A stretch of DNA of 64,000 bases from a bacterium (GTDB taxonomy: Bacteria > UBA8248), in the NCBI GenBank assembly GCA_022828125.1, contig JAJEJD010000020.1, positions 124,001 through 188,000 on the forward strand, given 5' to 3'. Shown piece after piece: positions 19,393 through 25,469 of the stretch; within the stretch, counting starts at the first letter, position 1, and each line of letters opens with the position of its first letter. A program made the translations under genes and the position numbers. A model generated the notes under the pieces. The model was given only the letters and a program-made list of their open reading frames with translations, was not told the DNA's origin and made no database searches.

Positions 19393-19851
19393 CTAAATGC
19401 TCACCTGGAAATTGGGCAGGCGCACGCCCCCTCCCGCATCCGCCGGGGCCGCGCTCAACTCCTCCAGCGTGGTCTCGCGCAGCGTCTTGTCGATGGCGTC
19501 TTCGAGTTTTTTCCAAAGCGCGCGGCTCCCGCATACCGGGATGTTCGGGCACGGCGCCGAGGGAGGCGCATCGCCGCAATCGACGGGCTGAATCGTCTCG
19601 CCCACCGCGGAGAGAACGTCGCGCATATTGATCTCGGAAGGCGGCAGCGCGAGGATGTAGCCGCCTCCCGGCCCCCGCGTGCTGCTCACCAGGGAAGCCC
19701 TGCGCATCTTCACGAACAATTGTTCGAGATAATGCTGGCTGATGCCGAGCTTGCCGGCAATCTGCGGCAGGGGCACGGGATGCGTCTGCGAATGCCTCGC
19801 CAGCTCAATCATGGCGAGCACGGCGTATCGCCCCTTGGTCGATATCTTCAT
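19393..19851 (-). CDS. Rrf2-family transcriptional regulator
   Basis: A 152-residue regulator with the Rrf2 winged-helix start MKISTKGRYAVLAMIELA and the recognition region GISQHYLEQLFVKMRRA (about 36-52). Three cysteines at C92, C101 and C107 are placed like the [2Fe-2S] ligands of IscR (C92, C98, C104), with slightly different spacing, so an iron-sulfur or thiol sensor is likely. CymR, the cysteine regulator of Gram-positives, belongs to the same family. I choose the ATG at 19851, with GAGAGG 9 bases upstream; a second ATG at 19860 is close behind. It is last in the cysteine cluster and probably controls it. Confidence 0.88.
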   Translation of the reverse strand: MKISTKGRYAVLAMIELARHSQTHPVPLPQIAGKLGISQHYLEQLFVKMRRASLVSSTRGPGGGYILALPPSEINMRDVLSAVGETIQPVDCGDAPPSAPCPNIPVCGSRALWKKLEDAIDKTLRETTLEELSAAPADAGGGVRLPNFQVSI

Positions 19852-19889: not shown

Positions 19890-20699
19890 CTAAACGAGCG
19901 CTCCCCGCCTCACGGGGATTTTCGTTTGCCTGCGATCGACGAGCGCGCAGACAGGACAATCCGGGTCCTGCGCCACGCGCACGCTCCCGGCGGCGTTTGC
20001 CCGAAAATCGGCCGTCATCAGCCTGTTCGACCAGACGGGTTCAAGCCCCCCGAGAACCCGCAGCGCGTCCGCGGCCTGCGCCATGCCCACGAAACCGGCC
20101 ACCGCGCCGAAAACGCCCGCATCCCCGCAGTCGAGGCCGCGCGCATTTGCGCCCTCCTCTCCCACCAGGCAACGCAGACACGCGCTCCGGCCCGGCAGAA
20201 TCGTCATCACCTGGCCGAAAAATCGCAAAACGCCGCCCATCACCCACGGCTTGCCCGCTGCGGCGCAGGCGTCGTTCAGCGCGAGTTTGGCGGCCAGGTT
20301 GTCGCTTCCATCGACGATGACGTCATAGGGCGCGACGATTCGAGCGGCGTTCTCACGCGTGAGCCTTTGGGGAATCTTGTCCACCCCTACCTCGGCGGAG
20401 AGCCTGAATATGGAATCGGCGCCCGAGTCCACCTTCAGGCGGCCGATGTCCTCGGTGCGGTGAAGAATCTGGCGCGCGAGGTTGTCGAGCGTCACCGTGT
20501 CGTGATCCGCAACCCCGATTCGCGCAACGCCCGCCGCCGCCAGGGCGAGCGCGGCGGGACAGCCCAGGCCGCCGACCCCCACGATGAGTGCGGACGAGTC
20601 CGCCAATGCGCTTTTTTCGCTCATGCGTGCCGTGGATGCGCTCACGGACGCTGACGGCGCTTCATCGGTCAACCCCGCGCGAGGATTATGAAGGCTCAC
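19890..20699 (-). CDS. ThiF/MoeB-type E1-like adenylyltransferase, catalytic but lacking the N-terminal arginine-finger segment
   Basis: This 269-residue protein has the nucleotide loop VGVGGLGCPAAL (about 41-52), then DNLARQILH, the GRLKVD lysine and DGSDN, all required for ATP-driven adenylation in MoeB. Two CxxC zinc pairs, CLRC and CPVC, are also present. The usual RYxRH segment before the loop is missing. In MoeB an arginine from that segment reaches into the partner's active site. In its place is a Ser/Ala-rich N-terminus. The start is GTG at 20699, overlapping the JAMM stop (GTGA) and preceded by GAGGAG. It would adenylate the CysO-like carrier's C-terminus before sulfur transfer. Confidence 0.88.
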   Translation of the reverse strand: MSLHNPRAGLTDEAPSASVSASTARMSEKSALADSSALIVGVGGLGCPAALALAAAGVARIGVADHDTVTLDNLARQILHRTEDIGRLKVDSGADSIFRLSAEVGVDKIPQRLTRENAARIVAPYDVIVDGSDNLAAKLALNDACAAAGKPWVMGGVLRFFGQVMTILPGRSACLRCLVGEEGANARGLDCGDAGVFGAVAGFVGMAQAADALRVLGGLEPVWSNRLMTADFRANAAGSVRVAQDPDCPVCALVDRRQTKIPVRRGALV

Positions 20700-21190
20700 G
20701 CGCTTGTCTCCTCGAGAATTTCCAAATCACTCTCGATAAAGGTCTTTTGCTCCGCATCCCAGGAATACACCTTCTGCCCGAGTACGGCGCCCTCGCGCAC
20801 GCTCATGACGACGTGCTCGGCATCCGGAAACGCCGGAATATCCCCGAAAGGAACCGCCGCATTCACGTCTTCCTGCGAGAAATAGGCGTCCTCGTCCGGG
20901 TGGCTGTGAAATATGCCGCGGACCACCTCGCCCGCCTTCTCCGCTTCTCTCACGATGCGCTCGAACTCGAAGGGGTCGATCAGGAATGCGCGCCGCGCCG
21001 TCCGGGGATAAATCTCCGGGTCCTTCGCGTGCATCTCGTTCTGCACGTTCTTGCAAGGCAGGAGGGCGAGCGTTTCTTCCGCACCACCCCTCCCGCGCGG
21101 AGGCCCGATTATCAGCCCGCAACACTCATCGGGGTACGCCTCGCGCGCGTGGCGGTGCATCGCCTCCACCTGTTCACGATTCAGACGCAA
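20696..21190 (-). CDS. JAMM/MPN-domain metallopeptidase (Mec+-like)
   Basis: A 164-residue JAB1/MPN protein with a complete JAMM zinc site: E22 in PDECCG, then HSHPDEDAYFSQED giving H95, H97, S105 and D108. In mycobacteria the related Mec+ cleaves cysteine from the CysO-cysteine adduct, and in Wolinella a JAMM protein trims the carrier's tail. Either role fits here, because the carrier encoded in this cluster ends GGL. The start is TTG at 21190 with AAGGAGG 7 bases upstream. The repeat block at 21204 lies immediately beyond this site and separates the gene from the upstream cysteine synthase. Confidence 0.9.
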   Translation of the reverse strand: MRLNREQVEAMHRHAREAYPDECCGLIIGPPRGRGGAEETLALLPCKNVQNEMHAKDPEIYPRTARRAFLIDPFEFERIVREAEKAGEVVRGIFHSHPDEDAYFSQEDVNAAVPFGDIPAFPDAEHVVMSVREGAVLGQKVYSWDAEQKTFIESDLEILEETSA

Positions 21191-21203
21191 TGCAAGCCTC
21201 CTT

Positions 21204-21490
21204 GGGGTTGTTGAAAAAGTCCTGGAACTCTGGATTTGTCGTATGTAACCGACCGACGAGAGAGAAAAATCACTCCCCCCTTGAGGGGGAGTCGAAGAAC
21301 TGAGGGCGTAAGCCCGAAAGCGATTCGGTGGGGGGTATAAATCGGACTGGCGATAAAACGCATTTTACCCCCCACCGCATCAGCCTTCGCACAAAGCGCT
21401 CGGCTTCCTCGACTCCCCCTCAAGGGGGGAGTGAACTTCAAGAGCGGGCGCTCAACCAAAATCGCTCCACGGGACTTTTTCAACACCCCC
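21204..21490. repeat. 287-bp MITE-like element of nested inverted repeats inside the cysteine cluster
   Basis: Outer arms at 21204-21222 and 21472-21490 match in inverted orientation at 18 of 19 bases (GGGGTTGTTGAAAAAGTCC type). A perfect 25-bp inverted repeat follows inside (21271-21295 and 21409-21433), each arm itself palindromic. An inner GGTGGGGGGTA/TACCCCCCACC pair lies near 21329-21376. There is no frame and no clear target duplication. It fills the gap between two genes of one presumed operon. Confidence 0.8.
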
Positions 21491-21493
21491 TCC

Positions 21494-22432
21494 TCAGCGC
21501 GCTTCGCTCAGGTACCTGTCCCCTCCGTCGGGAAACAGGGTGACGACCACGCCCTTGCCTATCTGCTTCGCCACCTCGCGCACGCCCACGAGCGCGGCGC
21601 CCGCCGAGTGGCCGATGAACAGGCCCTCTTCCTTGGCGATGCGCTCGGCGAGATCGTAGCTTTCCTCGGTGCTCGCCAGAATCAGATTGTCGTGCACGCC
21701 CTCATCGTAAATCCCCGGGCGAATGGCCGTGGGGATGTGCTTCATGCCCTCGAGGCCGTGAAACGATTCCGAGGGCATGACCGCATGCACCACGACGTCC
21801 TGTTTTCTCGCTTTCAGGCCGCGTCCCGTGCCCACCAGGGTGCCCGTGGTGCCGAGACCCGCGATGAAATGCTCCACGCGCCCGCCCGTCTGCTCCAGAA
21901 TCTCGGACGCCGTGGTCTCGACGTGGGCGAGCGGGTTGGCCGGGTTGTCGTATTGGCAGGGCAGGAAATACTTCTCCGGCTCGTCCTGATTCATCTTCGC
22001 CGCGAGGCGCTGCGCGCCGTCCGAGCCCTCCAGGGGATCCGAGAGAACGATATCCGCCCCGTAGCCCTTCAAGGTCGCCTTGCGCTCGTCGCTCGCGTTC
22101 GCAGGCAGGACGAGTCGGACGGGAATCCCGAGTGCCGCACCTATCATGGCGTAGGCGATGCCGGTGTTTCCGCTCGTGGAATCGAGCAGAATCTTGCCGG
22201 GGCGCAACGCTCCCGTTTCCAAGCCGTCTTTCACCATGAAGAGCGCCGGCCTGTCCTTCACCGAGCCGCCCGGGTTGAACCACTCCGCCTTGGCGTAGAC
22301 CTCCACGTCCGGGAATTCGCTCTTGAACAACTTGATTTCGAGCAATGGGGTGTTGCCGATACACTTGATGATTGGGGAATCCTCTAAATTTCTGAACGCG
22401 CTCGCGGGATTCGCCACCGTCGATTCGACCAT
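21494..22432 (-). CDS. Cysteine synthase family PLP enzyme (second copy in the cluster)
   Basis: A 312-residue fold-type II PLP enzyme. The cofactor lysine is in NPGGSVKDRP at about K59, the substrate-carboxylate loop is TSGNTGIAYA, and the phosphate loop is GLGTTGTLVGTGRG. In this family O-acetylserine or O-phosphoserine is condensed with a sulfur donor. In CysM of Mycobacterium the donor is the CysO thiocarboxylate. The insert NQDEPEKYFLPCQYDNPANP is shared with thiocarboxylate-type and cystathionine-type members. It differs clearly from the first synthase (23483-24442), so each may prefer a different substrate or donor. Confidence 0.88.
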   Translation of the reverse strand: MVESTVANPASAFRNLEDSPIIKCIGNTPLLEIKLFKSEFPDVEVYAKAEWFNPGGSVKDRPALFMVKDGLETGALRPGKILLDSTSGNTGIAYAMIGAALGIPVRLVLPANASDERKATLKGYGADIVLSDPLEGSDGAQRLAAKMNQDEPEKYFLPCQYDNPANPLAHVETTASEILEQTGGRVEHFIAGLGTTGTLVGTGRGLKARKQDVVVHAVMPSESFHGLEGMKHIPTAIRPGIYDEGVHDNLILASTEESYDLAERIAKEEGLFIGHSAGAALVGVREVAKQIGKGVVVTLFPDGGDRYLSEAR

Positions 22433-22465
22433 TGATATGGCCCTCGCACTTTGCTCCTGAAAATC

Positions 22466-23116
22466 TCAGGAAAGGTTCGCACGCGCCTCCATCAGGCCAT
22501 GCGAAAAATCGAATCGGGCCTGCGCAGTCGACCCCACTGTATCCATTTCATCCACCAGATGCCGCAAGGCTCTCGCGGCCAGCCATGCGCCCAAGGCGCC
22601 CTGGGACGCCGCCGTCGATGCGCCCCCTGGAGATGGCGTCACGTCCGGCTTCCCGAAAACGCCGGGGCCCTCGTGAATCTCTCCCGCCTCGCCACGGGAG
22701 ACGCCTCGGAGCGCGATTTTCGCCGAAGCCTCGAATCTCCCGTCAACCGGGGCTCCTTCATCGCCCAGCCGGATGAGAGCGTCGAATACCTCTCCCGCCC
22801 CCCCGTCCGGGTGAACGGGAACCAGCCTCGAATCGGGATTGAGCCTCTTGAGGCCACCTCCCAGGCTGCCGCCGAAGAAAGCGGAGAGCGGCGATTTCGG
22901 CTTAAGCCCATCGCTCTCATCGAGCGGACACCAGCCGATACGTCCCACGCCCGCCGCCGCCAGATAGACCAGGGCGGTGAGCGCCGCGCTCTCCTCATCC
23001 GCCGAATATGCGATGAGGACGGAAGAGGCAAGCAAGCGCTCCTGGCCGACTCCTCCCACTTCGGGGAGAAGAATGTGGCGGCTGTAGCGCTGAATCTGCT
23101 CTTCACTCAAGCCCAA
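22466..23116 (-). CDS. Degenerate ThiF/MoeB-like E1 homologue with lost ATP site
   Basis: About 216 residues. The N-terminus LSEEQIQRYSRHILLPEVGG is the canonical E1 opening with both arginines. At the place of the GxGGLG nucleotide loop the sequence is IAYSADEESA, and the later NLxRQ, lysine and DxxDN motifs and the zinc CxxC pairs are missing. It is therefore an inactive homologue, the mirror image of the catalytic protein at 19890-20699. The TTG at 23116 is chosen as start, with AGGAGAG about 8 bases upstream; this places it 34 bases after the carrier gene. A partner or scaffold role in a heterodimer is inferred. Decay toward a pseudogene is the alternative, but the frame is intact. Confidence 0.78.
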   Translation of the reverse strand: MGLSEEQIQRYSRHILLPEVGGVGQERLLASSVLIAYSADEESAALTALVYLAAAGVGRIGWCPLDESDGLKPKSPLSAFFGGSLGGGLKRLNPDSRLVPVHPDGGAGEVFDALIRLGDEGAPVDGRFEASAKIALRGVSRGEAGEIHEGPGVFGKPDVTPSPGGASTAASQGALGAWLAARALRHLVDEMDTVGSTAQARFDFSHGLMEARANLS

Positions 23117-23150: not shown

Positions 23151-23429
23151 TTACAGGCCGCCCGCGATGGCCGGCACGATGGAGACCTCATCCCCGTCGC
23201 TCACCGTCGTTCCCTCTCCCTGCAGAAAGCGGATGTCCTCCTGGTTCACATAAATGTTCACGAAACGCCGCAGCTTGCCCTCCTCGTCATAGAGGCGCTG
23301 GCCGATGCCCGCAAACTGGCCATCGAGGTTCGCGAGCACTTCCTTCACGTCCGCGCCCGCGATCTCCACGGCGTCCTGCTGCTGGGTGAACTCCTGTAAA
23401 GGTGTCGGAATACGAACCGTTACCGCCAT
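23151..23429 (-). CDS. CysO-like ubiquitin-fold sulfur carrier protein (ThiS/MoaD family)
   Basis: A 92-residue beta-grasp protein closely resembling mycobacterial CysO, notably at FVNIYVNQEDIRFL (about 56-69) and the C-terminal VSIVPAIAGG. Such carriers are adenylated at the terminal glycine by an E1-like enzyme, converted to a thiocarboxylate, and donate sulfur to cysteine synthase. Here one leucine follows the diglycine (GGL, then TAA), so activation should need removal of that residue, presumably by the JAMM peptidase. It sits between the first cysteine synthase and the degenerate E1 gene. Confidence 0.92.
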   Translation of the reverse strand: MAVTVRIPTPLQEFTQQQDAVEIAGADVKEVLANLDGQFAGIGQRLYDEEGKLRRFVNIYVNQEDIRFLQGEGTTVSDGDEVSIVPAIAGGL

Positions 23430-23482: not shown

Positions 23483-24442
<960 letters not shown>

Positions 24443-24647: not shown

Positions 24648-25469
24648 ATGGCGAAACCCGGGAGCCCTCCCCCCATCGCCCTGACGATAGCGGGTTCGGA
24701 CTCGGGCGGCGGAGCCGGGATTCAGGCCGACCTCAAGACTTTCAGCGCTTTCGGCGTATACGGCGCCTCTGTCATCACCGCGCTGACGGCGCAGAACACC
24801 GTGGGCGTGCAGGGGGTGCACGGCGCGCCGCCCGATTTCATCGCGGCGCAATTCGACTCGGTGTGCACGGACCTGGACGTGGCGAGCGCGAAAATCGGAA
24901 TGCTCGCCACGGTCGACGTCATCGAGGTCGTGGCTGCGAAGCTCAAAGAGCACGCGCTCGGGCGCGTCGTGCTCGACCCGGTGATGGTCGCCAAAAGCGG
25001 CGACCGCCTCCTCGCGCCCGACGCGAGAGACGCGCTCGTCGAAAAACTTTTCCCGCTGGCCGAGGTCGTTACCCCCAATACGGAGGAGGCGTGCGATATT
25101 CTCGAAACCGGAGAAATCGAAAACCTGGCACAGATGAGAGACGCCGCCCGGGCGCTTCATGAGCGCGGGGCGAAATGCGTTTTGCTCAAAGGAGGCCACA
25201 TCACCGATGGCGCCGTCGACATTTTTTTCGACGGCGAAAACGAGGTCGCGCTCGAGGGCAGGCGCATCGACACCCCCCATACCCACGGCACAGGATGCAC
25301 GCTCTCTTCCGCCATCGCGGCGGGGCTTGCGCTGGGGGAGTCCACCGAATCGGCGGTGAGGCGGGCGAAAGATTTCATCCAGGGCGCCATCGAGAACGCG
25401 CTCGCCATCGGAAACGGCAGAGGCCCGCTCAACCACATGTACCGCCAATTCGAGAAAAAATCGCCATGA
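24648..25469 (+). CDS. thiD: Hydroxymethylpyrimidine/phosphomethylpyrimidine kinase
   Basis: A 273-residue ribokinase-fold enzyme phosphorylating HMP and HMP-P in thiamine synthesis. It opens with IAGSDSGGGAGIQADLKTF, the ThiD hallmark, and continues with GVQGVHGAPPDFIAAQFDSV. The C-terminal anion-hole motif HGTGCTLSSAIAAGLALG (about 211-228) carries the catalytic aspartate-equivalent region. The length is typical for the single-domain form, with no fused ThiE. AAGGAG precedes the ATG. It is divergent from the cysteine cluster, whose carrier belongs to the ThiS/MoaD fold, but no other thi gene or TPP riboswitch is seen. Confidence 0.95.
   Translation: MAKPGSPPPIALTIAGSDSGGGAGIQADLKTFSAFGVYGASVITALTAQNTVGVQGVHGAPPDFIAAQFDSVCTDLDVASAKIGMLATVDVIEVVAAKLKEHALGRVVLDPVMVAKSGDRLLAPDARDALVEKLFPLAEVVTPNTEEACDILETGEIENLAQMRDAARALHERGAKCVLLKGGHITDGAVDIFFDGENEVALEGRRIDTPHTHGTGCTLSSAIAAGLALGESTESAVRRAKDFIQGAIENALAIGNGRGPLNHMYRQFEKKSP

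Follow-up and report, generated by a model that had tools for sequence, protein, structure and literature searches.

The contig JAJEJD010000020.1 (assembly GCA_022828125.1) carries a cluster of seven genes, two of which encode E1-like proteins that probably form an obligate heterodimeric E1, composed of one active and one inactive subunit, activating a CysO-like carrier. The DNA analysed is a 64,000-nt window, whose positions are used for all cluster coordinates, and it was compared with 18 genomes of the same phylum, a Nitrospinota-like lineage. The cluster lies on the minus strand, from 24442 to 19393, in the order cysK, carrier, pseudo-E1, cysM, JAMM, catalytic E1 and Rrf2. The inactive half, called pseudo-E1 here, is encoded at 22466..23116 and the catalytic half at 19890..20699, both on the minus strand, where the initial annotation had placed them. 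It also seems likely, if with slightly less assurance, that the pair is an obligate bacterial heterodimeric E1 that arose independently of eukaryotes through complementary loss, has one ATP site per dimer and serves a capped carrier in cysteine synthesis. The E1 fold and the pathway are known; for the split into two chains, the literature searched gave no bacterial counterpart.

The catalytic half is an E1/ThiF-type adenylyltransferase (Pfam ThiF, 207.9 bits), and its GTG start codon overlaps the stop codon of the JAMM gene (GTGA). The motifs GVGGLG, NLARQ, K89, DGSDN, CxxC and C191, the latter being the equivalent of ThiF Cys184, are invariant or nearly so across the catalytic halves of 14 relatives. 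In its predicted structure it folds as a whole E1, closest to ThiF/MoeB, consisting of the adenylation domain alone, some 245-270 amino acids long, with neither a catalytic-cysteine domain nor a ubiquitin-fold domain. No RYxR precedes the nucleotide loop in any of the 14 catalytic halves. Since the match to the ThiF profile starts at position 13 here, and at position 13 or later among the relatives, and the ThiF and MoeB structures align to the protein only from their residues 23-26 onward, the N-terminal RYxR helix is missing, which confirms the earlier description of a gene with all catalytic motifs and no RYxR. A missed upstream start that would supply the protein with its own RYxR is rejected, as the upstream open frames hold none. 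An anti-phage E1/E2 system is likewise rejected: in PADLOC the catalytic half gave only generic E1-domain matches, the best at 55.9 bits, and there was no match for pseudo-E1 or the carrier.

Pseudo-E1 starts with a TTG codon shortly after GAGAGGAGAG and consists of the RYSRHILLPEVGG segment, a degenerate Rossmann part and a C-terminal helix. The sequence-level match to E1 models is limited to approximately residues 24-94 of the longer open reading frame (ORF), and after RYSRHILLPEVGG and the linker these models are scarcely matched. The alignment of 14 relatives shows that the nucleotide loop, NLxRQ, the lysine, DGxDN and the zinc cysteines have been lost. A profile built from the 14 relatives nevertheless aligns globally with full-length E1s over 209 columns with a probability of 99.9. 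The AlphaFold2 model is moderate (predicted local distance difference test score 69.6, predicted template modelling score 0.74); its best Foldseek matches are ThiF, Uba4 and MoeB, and among heterodimeric E1s they are SUMO-E1 chains, with labels pointing to the inactive subunit SAE1. As modelled, pseudo-E1 is an entire degenerate E1 fold rather than a fragment. The earlier claim that it keeps RYSRHILLPEVGG and has lost the catalytic motifs thus stands, whereas the notion that the RYSRH piece is all that was kept does not, as the C-terminal helix region, which takes part in pairing in E1 dimers, is also retained. In all 14 relatives the segment kept by pseudo-E1 is precisely the one missing from the catalytic half, and this motif split, together with the whole E1 folds of both proteins, supports the proposed division into active and inactive halves. 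In the tree the catalytic halves form one clade and pseudo-E1 lies on a long branch; the two may be sister copies.

Both genes are present in 14 of the 18 phylum genomes, spread over four genera, and none of the 18 has one of them alone, so that the co-occurrence suggested in the initial annotation is borne out. In these 14 genomes the two genes stand apart from each other, always at the same pair of positions, and the gene order is identical wherever the contigs extend far enough to show it. Two other genomes (G001 and G012) keep cysK, the carrier, cysM, JAMM and Rrf2, with both E1 halves absent. G001 is a close relative in the tree of G003, which has both halves, and it retains a remnant of the catalytic gene, with the start and the C-terminal tail around a deletion of ~550 bases with a small frameshift, while pseudo-E1 is gone; therefore, two non-adjacent genes were lost together. 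The initial annotation had considered absence of pseudo-E1 from relatives that keep the cluster as evidence against pairing, and G001 and G012 formally match that description, but the catalytic gene has gone too, which favours pairing. Neither carrier nor E1 pair was found in G011, and the contig of G002 ends ~35 bases past the carrier stop, its final bases resembling the start of pseudo-E1.

The other E1s of these genomes point in the same direction. G003 (96% complete) and G010 (91%) have the pair and no other ThiF-family protein, so that the pair must be their sole E1, unless one was missed; G001 and G012 have full-length E1s. Pseudo-E1 thus tracks the catalytic half and not the housekeeping enzyme. 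When 386 genomes from across bacteria were searched with the pseudo-E1 profile, full-length matches were confined to this family, and a scan of genome contigs found 11 loci, all with metagenome-assembled genomes of this lineage. From 60 carrier neighbourhoods in other families, 32 full-length E1s were collected, and all of them have an RYxR-type start, one being RYGC and another RFSR. The RYGC enzyme (L164:8617-9420) is linked to a cluster that also holds rhodanese-like genes. Some genomes of other families (G304, G188, G326 and G041) have two full-length E1s within the cluster or close by, a state from which complementary loss could plausibly have started; in a quick tree, the second E1 of G304 and the catalytic halves branch at one and the same open fork. 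Carrier/cysM/JAMM clusters of other families with two full-length E1 genes in them or nearby (L205:1194-5253, L169, L209 and L188) may represent paralogue pairs.

Selection also distinguishes the parts of pseudo-E1. The median ratio of non-synonymous to synonymous substitution rates (dN/dS) within the genus is 0.05 for the carrier, 0.06 for cysK, 0.08 for cysM, 0.10 for JAMM and for Rrf2, 0.21 for the catalytic half and 0.32 for pseudo-E1, the weakest constraint of the seven genes. Within pseudo-E1, residues 1-31, which comprise the RYSRH helix and the linker (23024..23116, minus strand), are the most constrained stretch (0.03), followed by values of 0.25 for residues 32-64, 0.58 for the nearly relaxed middle (65-165) and 0.17 for residues 166-216, a clear constraint on the C-terminal dimer region. 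Residues 1-31 were again the most constrained in a second genus (0.13), where the C-terminal part reached 0.43. This pattern fits a protein that serves to present its N-terminal segment together with a face for dimerisation. As pseudo-E1 is kept in 14 genomes, with its ORF open, and is under purifying selection, its presence is not due to chance and the status of a pseudogene is rejected.

The arginine itself, which had been proposed as the key of the arrangement, fares less well than the segment that carries it. The segment is present in the inactive subunit of all 14 relatives; RYSRH is found in 12 of them, and two sister species have RYSHH, the second arginine being changed to His by a single CGT-to-CAT substitution. 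A 2026 study of yeast Tcd1-Tcd2 reported that the ThiF Arg11 and MoeB Arg14 fingers are not essential, and that Tcd1 Arg59 has little effect although the inactive Tcd1 is nonetheless required for Tcd2 (PMC13139853). The arginine is therefore probably not the essential part but a helpful, dispensable detail, and the His of two species and the reported non-essential fingers shift the weight to pseudo-E1 as a structural partner. The requirement of Tcd1 for Tcd2 counts as a precedent for the heterodimer.

The proposed model starts from two E1 copies that would have decayed in complementary fashion, one losing its N-terminal RYxR helix and the other its chemistry, the dead copy keeping the RYxR helix and the dimer face. 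The products would form an obligate 1:1 heterodimer with a single ATP site, in which the dead subunit may stabilise the catalytic one, with its N-terminal segment laid over the ATP site of its partner. The substrate would be the carrier encoded at 23151..23429 on the minus strand, a ubiquitin-like protein of the ThiS/MoaD/CysO type (Pfam ThiS, 63.4 bits), whose C-terminus consists in all 14 relatives of an invariant AGG followed by a single residue that caps it, L in this genome and L or R in the relatives. Carriers with such a cap typically depend on a protease to expose Gly-Gly, as in the case of QbsD (PMC6006322), so that removal of the cap and release of cysteine may both be tasks of the JAMM enzyme. 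Following removal of the last residue by this peptidase, the E1 pair would adenylate the carrier, a sulphur donor would convert it to the thiocarboxylate, CysM (perhaps CysK) would use the thiocarboxylate to form carrier-Cys, and the JAMM enzyme would free cysteine from it. An N-terminal rhodanese-E1 is encoded elsewhere in most genomes with the pair, and it could supply the sulphur where present. The combination of carrier, cysteine synthase, JAMM and E1 is a known operon type, class 4c of Iyer et al. 2006 (PMC1779556), whose components cooperate in M. tuberculosis, CysO being sulphurated there by MoeZR (PMC3227635). Here, too, a cysteine synthase and a JAMM peptidase lie beside a Gly-Gly carrier, as in the CysO-CysM-Mec pathway, and this cluster content supports the sulphur-carrier and cysteine context given in the initial annotation.

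It could be argued that the catalytic half is a self-sufficient homodimer for which the N-terminal arginine is dispensable, as the finger is for TcdA, and that pseudo-E1 has another job in the pathway, such as holding the carrier or CysM, or regulating flux. Several observations weigh against the obligate heterodimer or give this explanation some room: no gene of the cluster is under weaker constraint than pseudo-E1, and its arginine is replaced by His in two sister species; a homodimer is possible, since MoeB/ThiF-type enzymes can function without the finger; there is one clear loss event only, as G012 may lack the two genes ancestrally; and the relatives are all metagenome assemblies from a single lineage. 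A self-sufficient homodimer, however, leaves unexplained why the catalytic half lost its N-terminus in every genome with pseudo-E1, when all 32 full-length E1s near carriers in other families kept theirs, and why selection falls on precisely the segment missing from the partner, which makes it unlikely.

A different partner is much less probable still. Pseudo-E1 might pair with the housekeeping rhodanese-E1 and modulate it instead of the catalytic half of the cluster, given that most pair genomes encode this enzyme and that the E1 dimer fold is common to both, yet G003 and G010 have pseudo-E1 without another E1, and the reverse holds for G001 and G012. It is hardly credible that pseudo-E1 is a decaying relic without present function. 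The weak overall dN/dS and the nearly relaxed middle would suit a relic, but an ORF that stays open across four genera (14 genomes), the strong constraint on residues 1-31 and the fact that pseudo-E1 and the catalytic half are never present or missing one without the other all speak against it. The obligate heterodimer therefore remains the preferred explanation.

The remaining genes of the cluster are all on the minus strand. The first is a cysK-like cysteine synthase (23483..24442; NCBIfam TIGR01139, 398.6 bits, above its cut-off), which occupies the same place in relatives. The cysM-like cysteine synthase (21494..22432) has NCBIfam TIGR01138 as its best model, at 339 bits and below the cut-off of that model. 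The JAMM/JAB peptidase is Mec-like (20696..21190; Pfam Prok-JAB, 72.2 bits), and its motif HSHPDEDAYFSQED was read from the sequence. The last gene (19393..19851) encodes an Rrf2-family regulator resembling IscR/CymR (Pfam Rrf2, 124.7 bits) and is kept in relatives; in G001 (L128:8593-8998) it is broken by a frameshift and a small deletion, possibly an assembly error. Between cysM and the JAMM gene lies a palindromic element at 21204-21490 that resembles a miniature inverted-repeat transposable element, with ends GGGGTTGTTGAAAAAGTCC that are 95% complementary and a 30-nt inverted repeat inside; the genome has ~40 or more related places, and a comparable gap exists at this site in G007 and in no other relative. 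A thiD-like phosphomethylpyrimidine kinase gene (24648-25469) is divergent from the cluster, and similar genes flank it in G001, G002 and G012. At L195:5074-6671, the frame of an N-terminal-rhodanese E1 is interrupted, giving 306 amino acids followed by an 80-amino-acid piece that carries the missing C-terminus; a whole-genome search found one in-frame TGA at the interruption, and the same in G115. One in-frame TGA also occurs in several other E1s, possibly encoding selenocysteine or reflecting a sequencing artefact.

In reviews, MoeB and ThiF appear as homodimers, and eukaryotes are the only organisms for which heterodimeric E1s are mentioned (PMC12355090; PMC11354881). The initial annotation knew of no described bacterial example in cysteine synthesis, and no described bacterial active/inactive E1 pair was found in the literature searched, subscription papers lying mostly outside its scope. 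The homodimers MoeB and ThiF of E. coli share catalytic motifs, zinc cysteines and fold with the catalytic half, but in them the RYxR segment is combined with the catalytic motifs in each chain, whereas here the two are on separate chains. In the M. tuberculosis CysO-CysM-Mec system with MoeZR (class 4c), carrier, cysteine synthase, JAMM and E1 also come together; its E1, however, is one chain whose C-terminal domain is a rhodanese, in contrast to the two chains without rhodanese of this cluster, which has in addition the one-residue carrier cap, a second cysteine synthase and the Rrf2 gene. Like the pair described here, SAE1-SAE2 (AOS1-UBA2) and NAE1-UBA3 consist of inactive and active E1-fold subunits from two genes, and their inactive subunit keeps the N-terminal arginine segment, as pseudo-E1 does, although the bacterial pair lacks the catalytic-cysteine and ubiquitin-fold domains and belongs to a sulphur-carrier setting. 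As the catalytic half is closest to ThiF/MoeB, an origin independent of the eukaryotic E1s is likely. Yeast Tcd1-Tcd2 also joins an inactive and an active MoeB/ThiF-fold protein, the inactive one being required and offering an arginine finger (PMC13139853), but it is eukaryotic, acts on tRNA (ct6A) without a ubiquitin-like carrier, and its Tcd1 is far less degenerate. If the proposed model is true, the bacterial pair represents an independent run of the symmetric-to-asymmetric transition of eukaryotic E1s, whose canonical forms are asymmetric pairs of an active and an inactive part, and it is small enough for reconstitution, in which it can be asked whether asymmetry brings a gain, such as single-site control or carrier choice, or results from neutral complementary decay.
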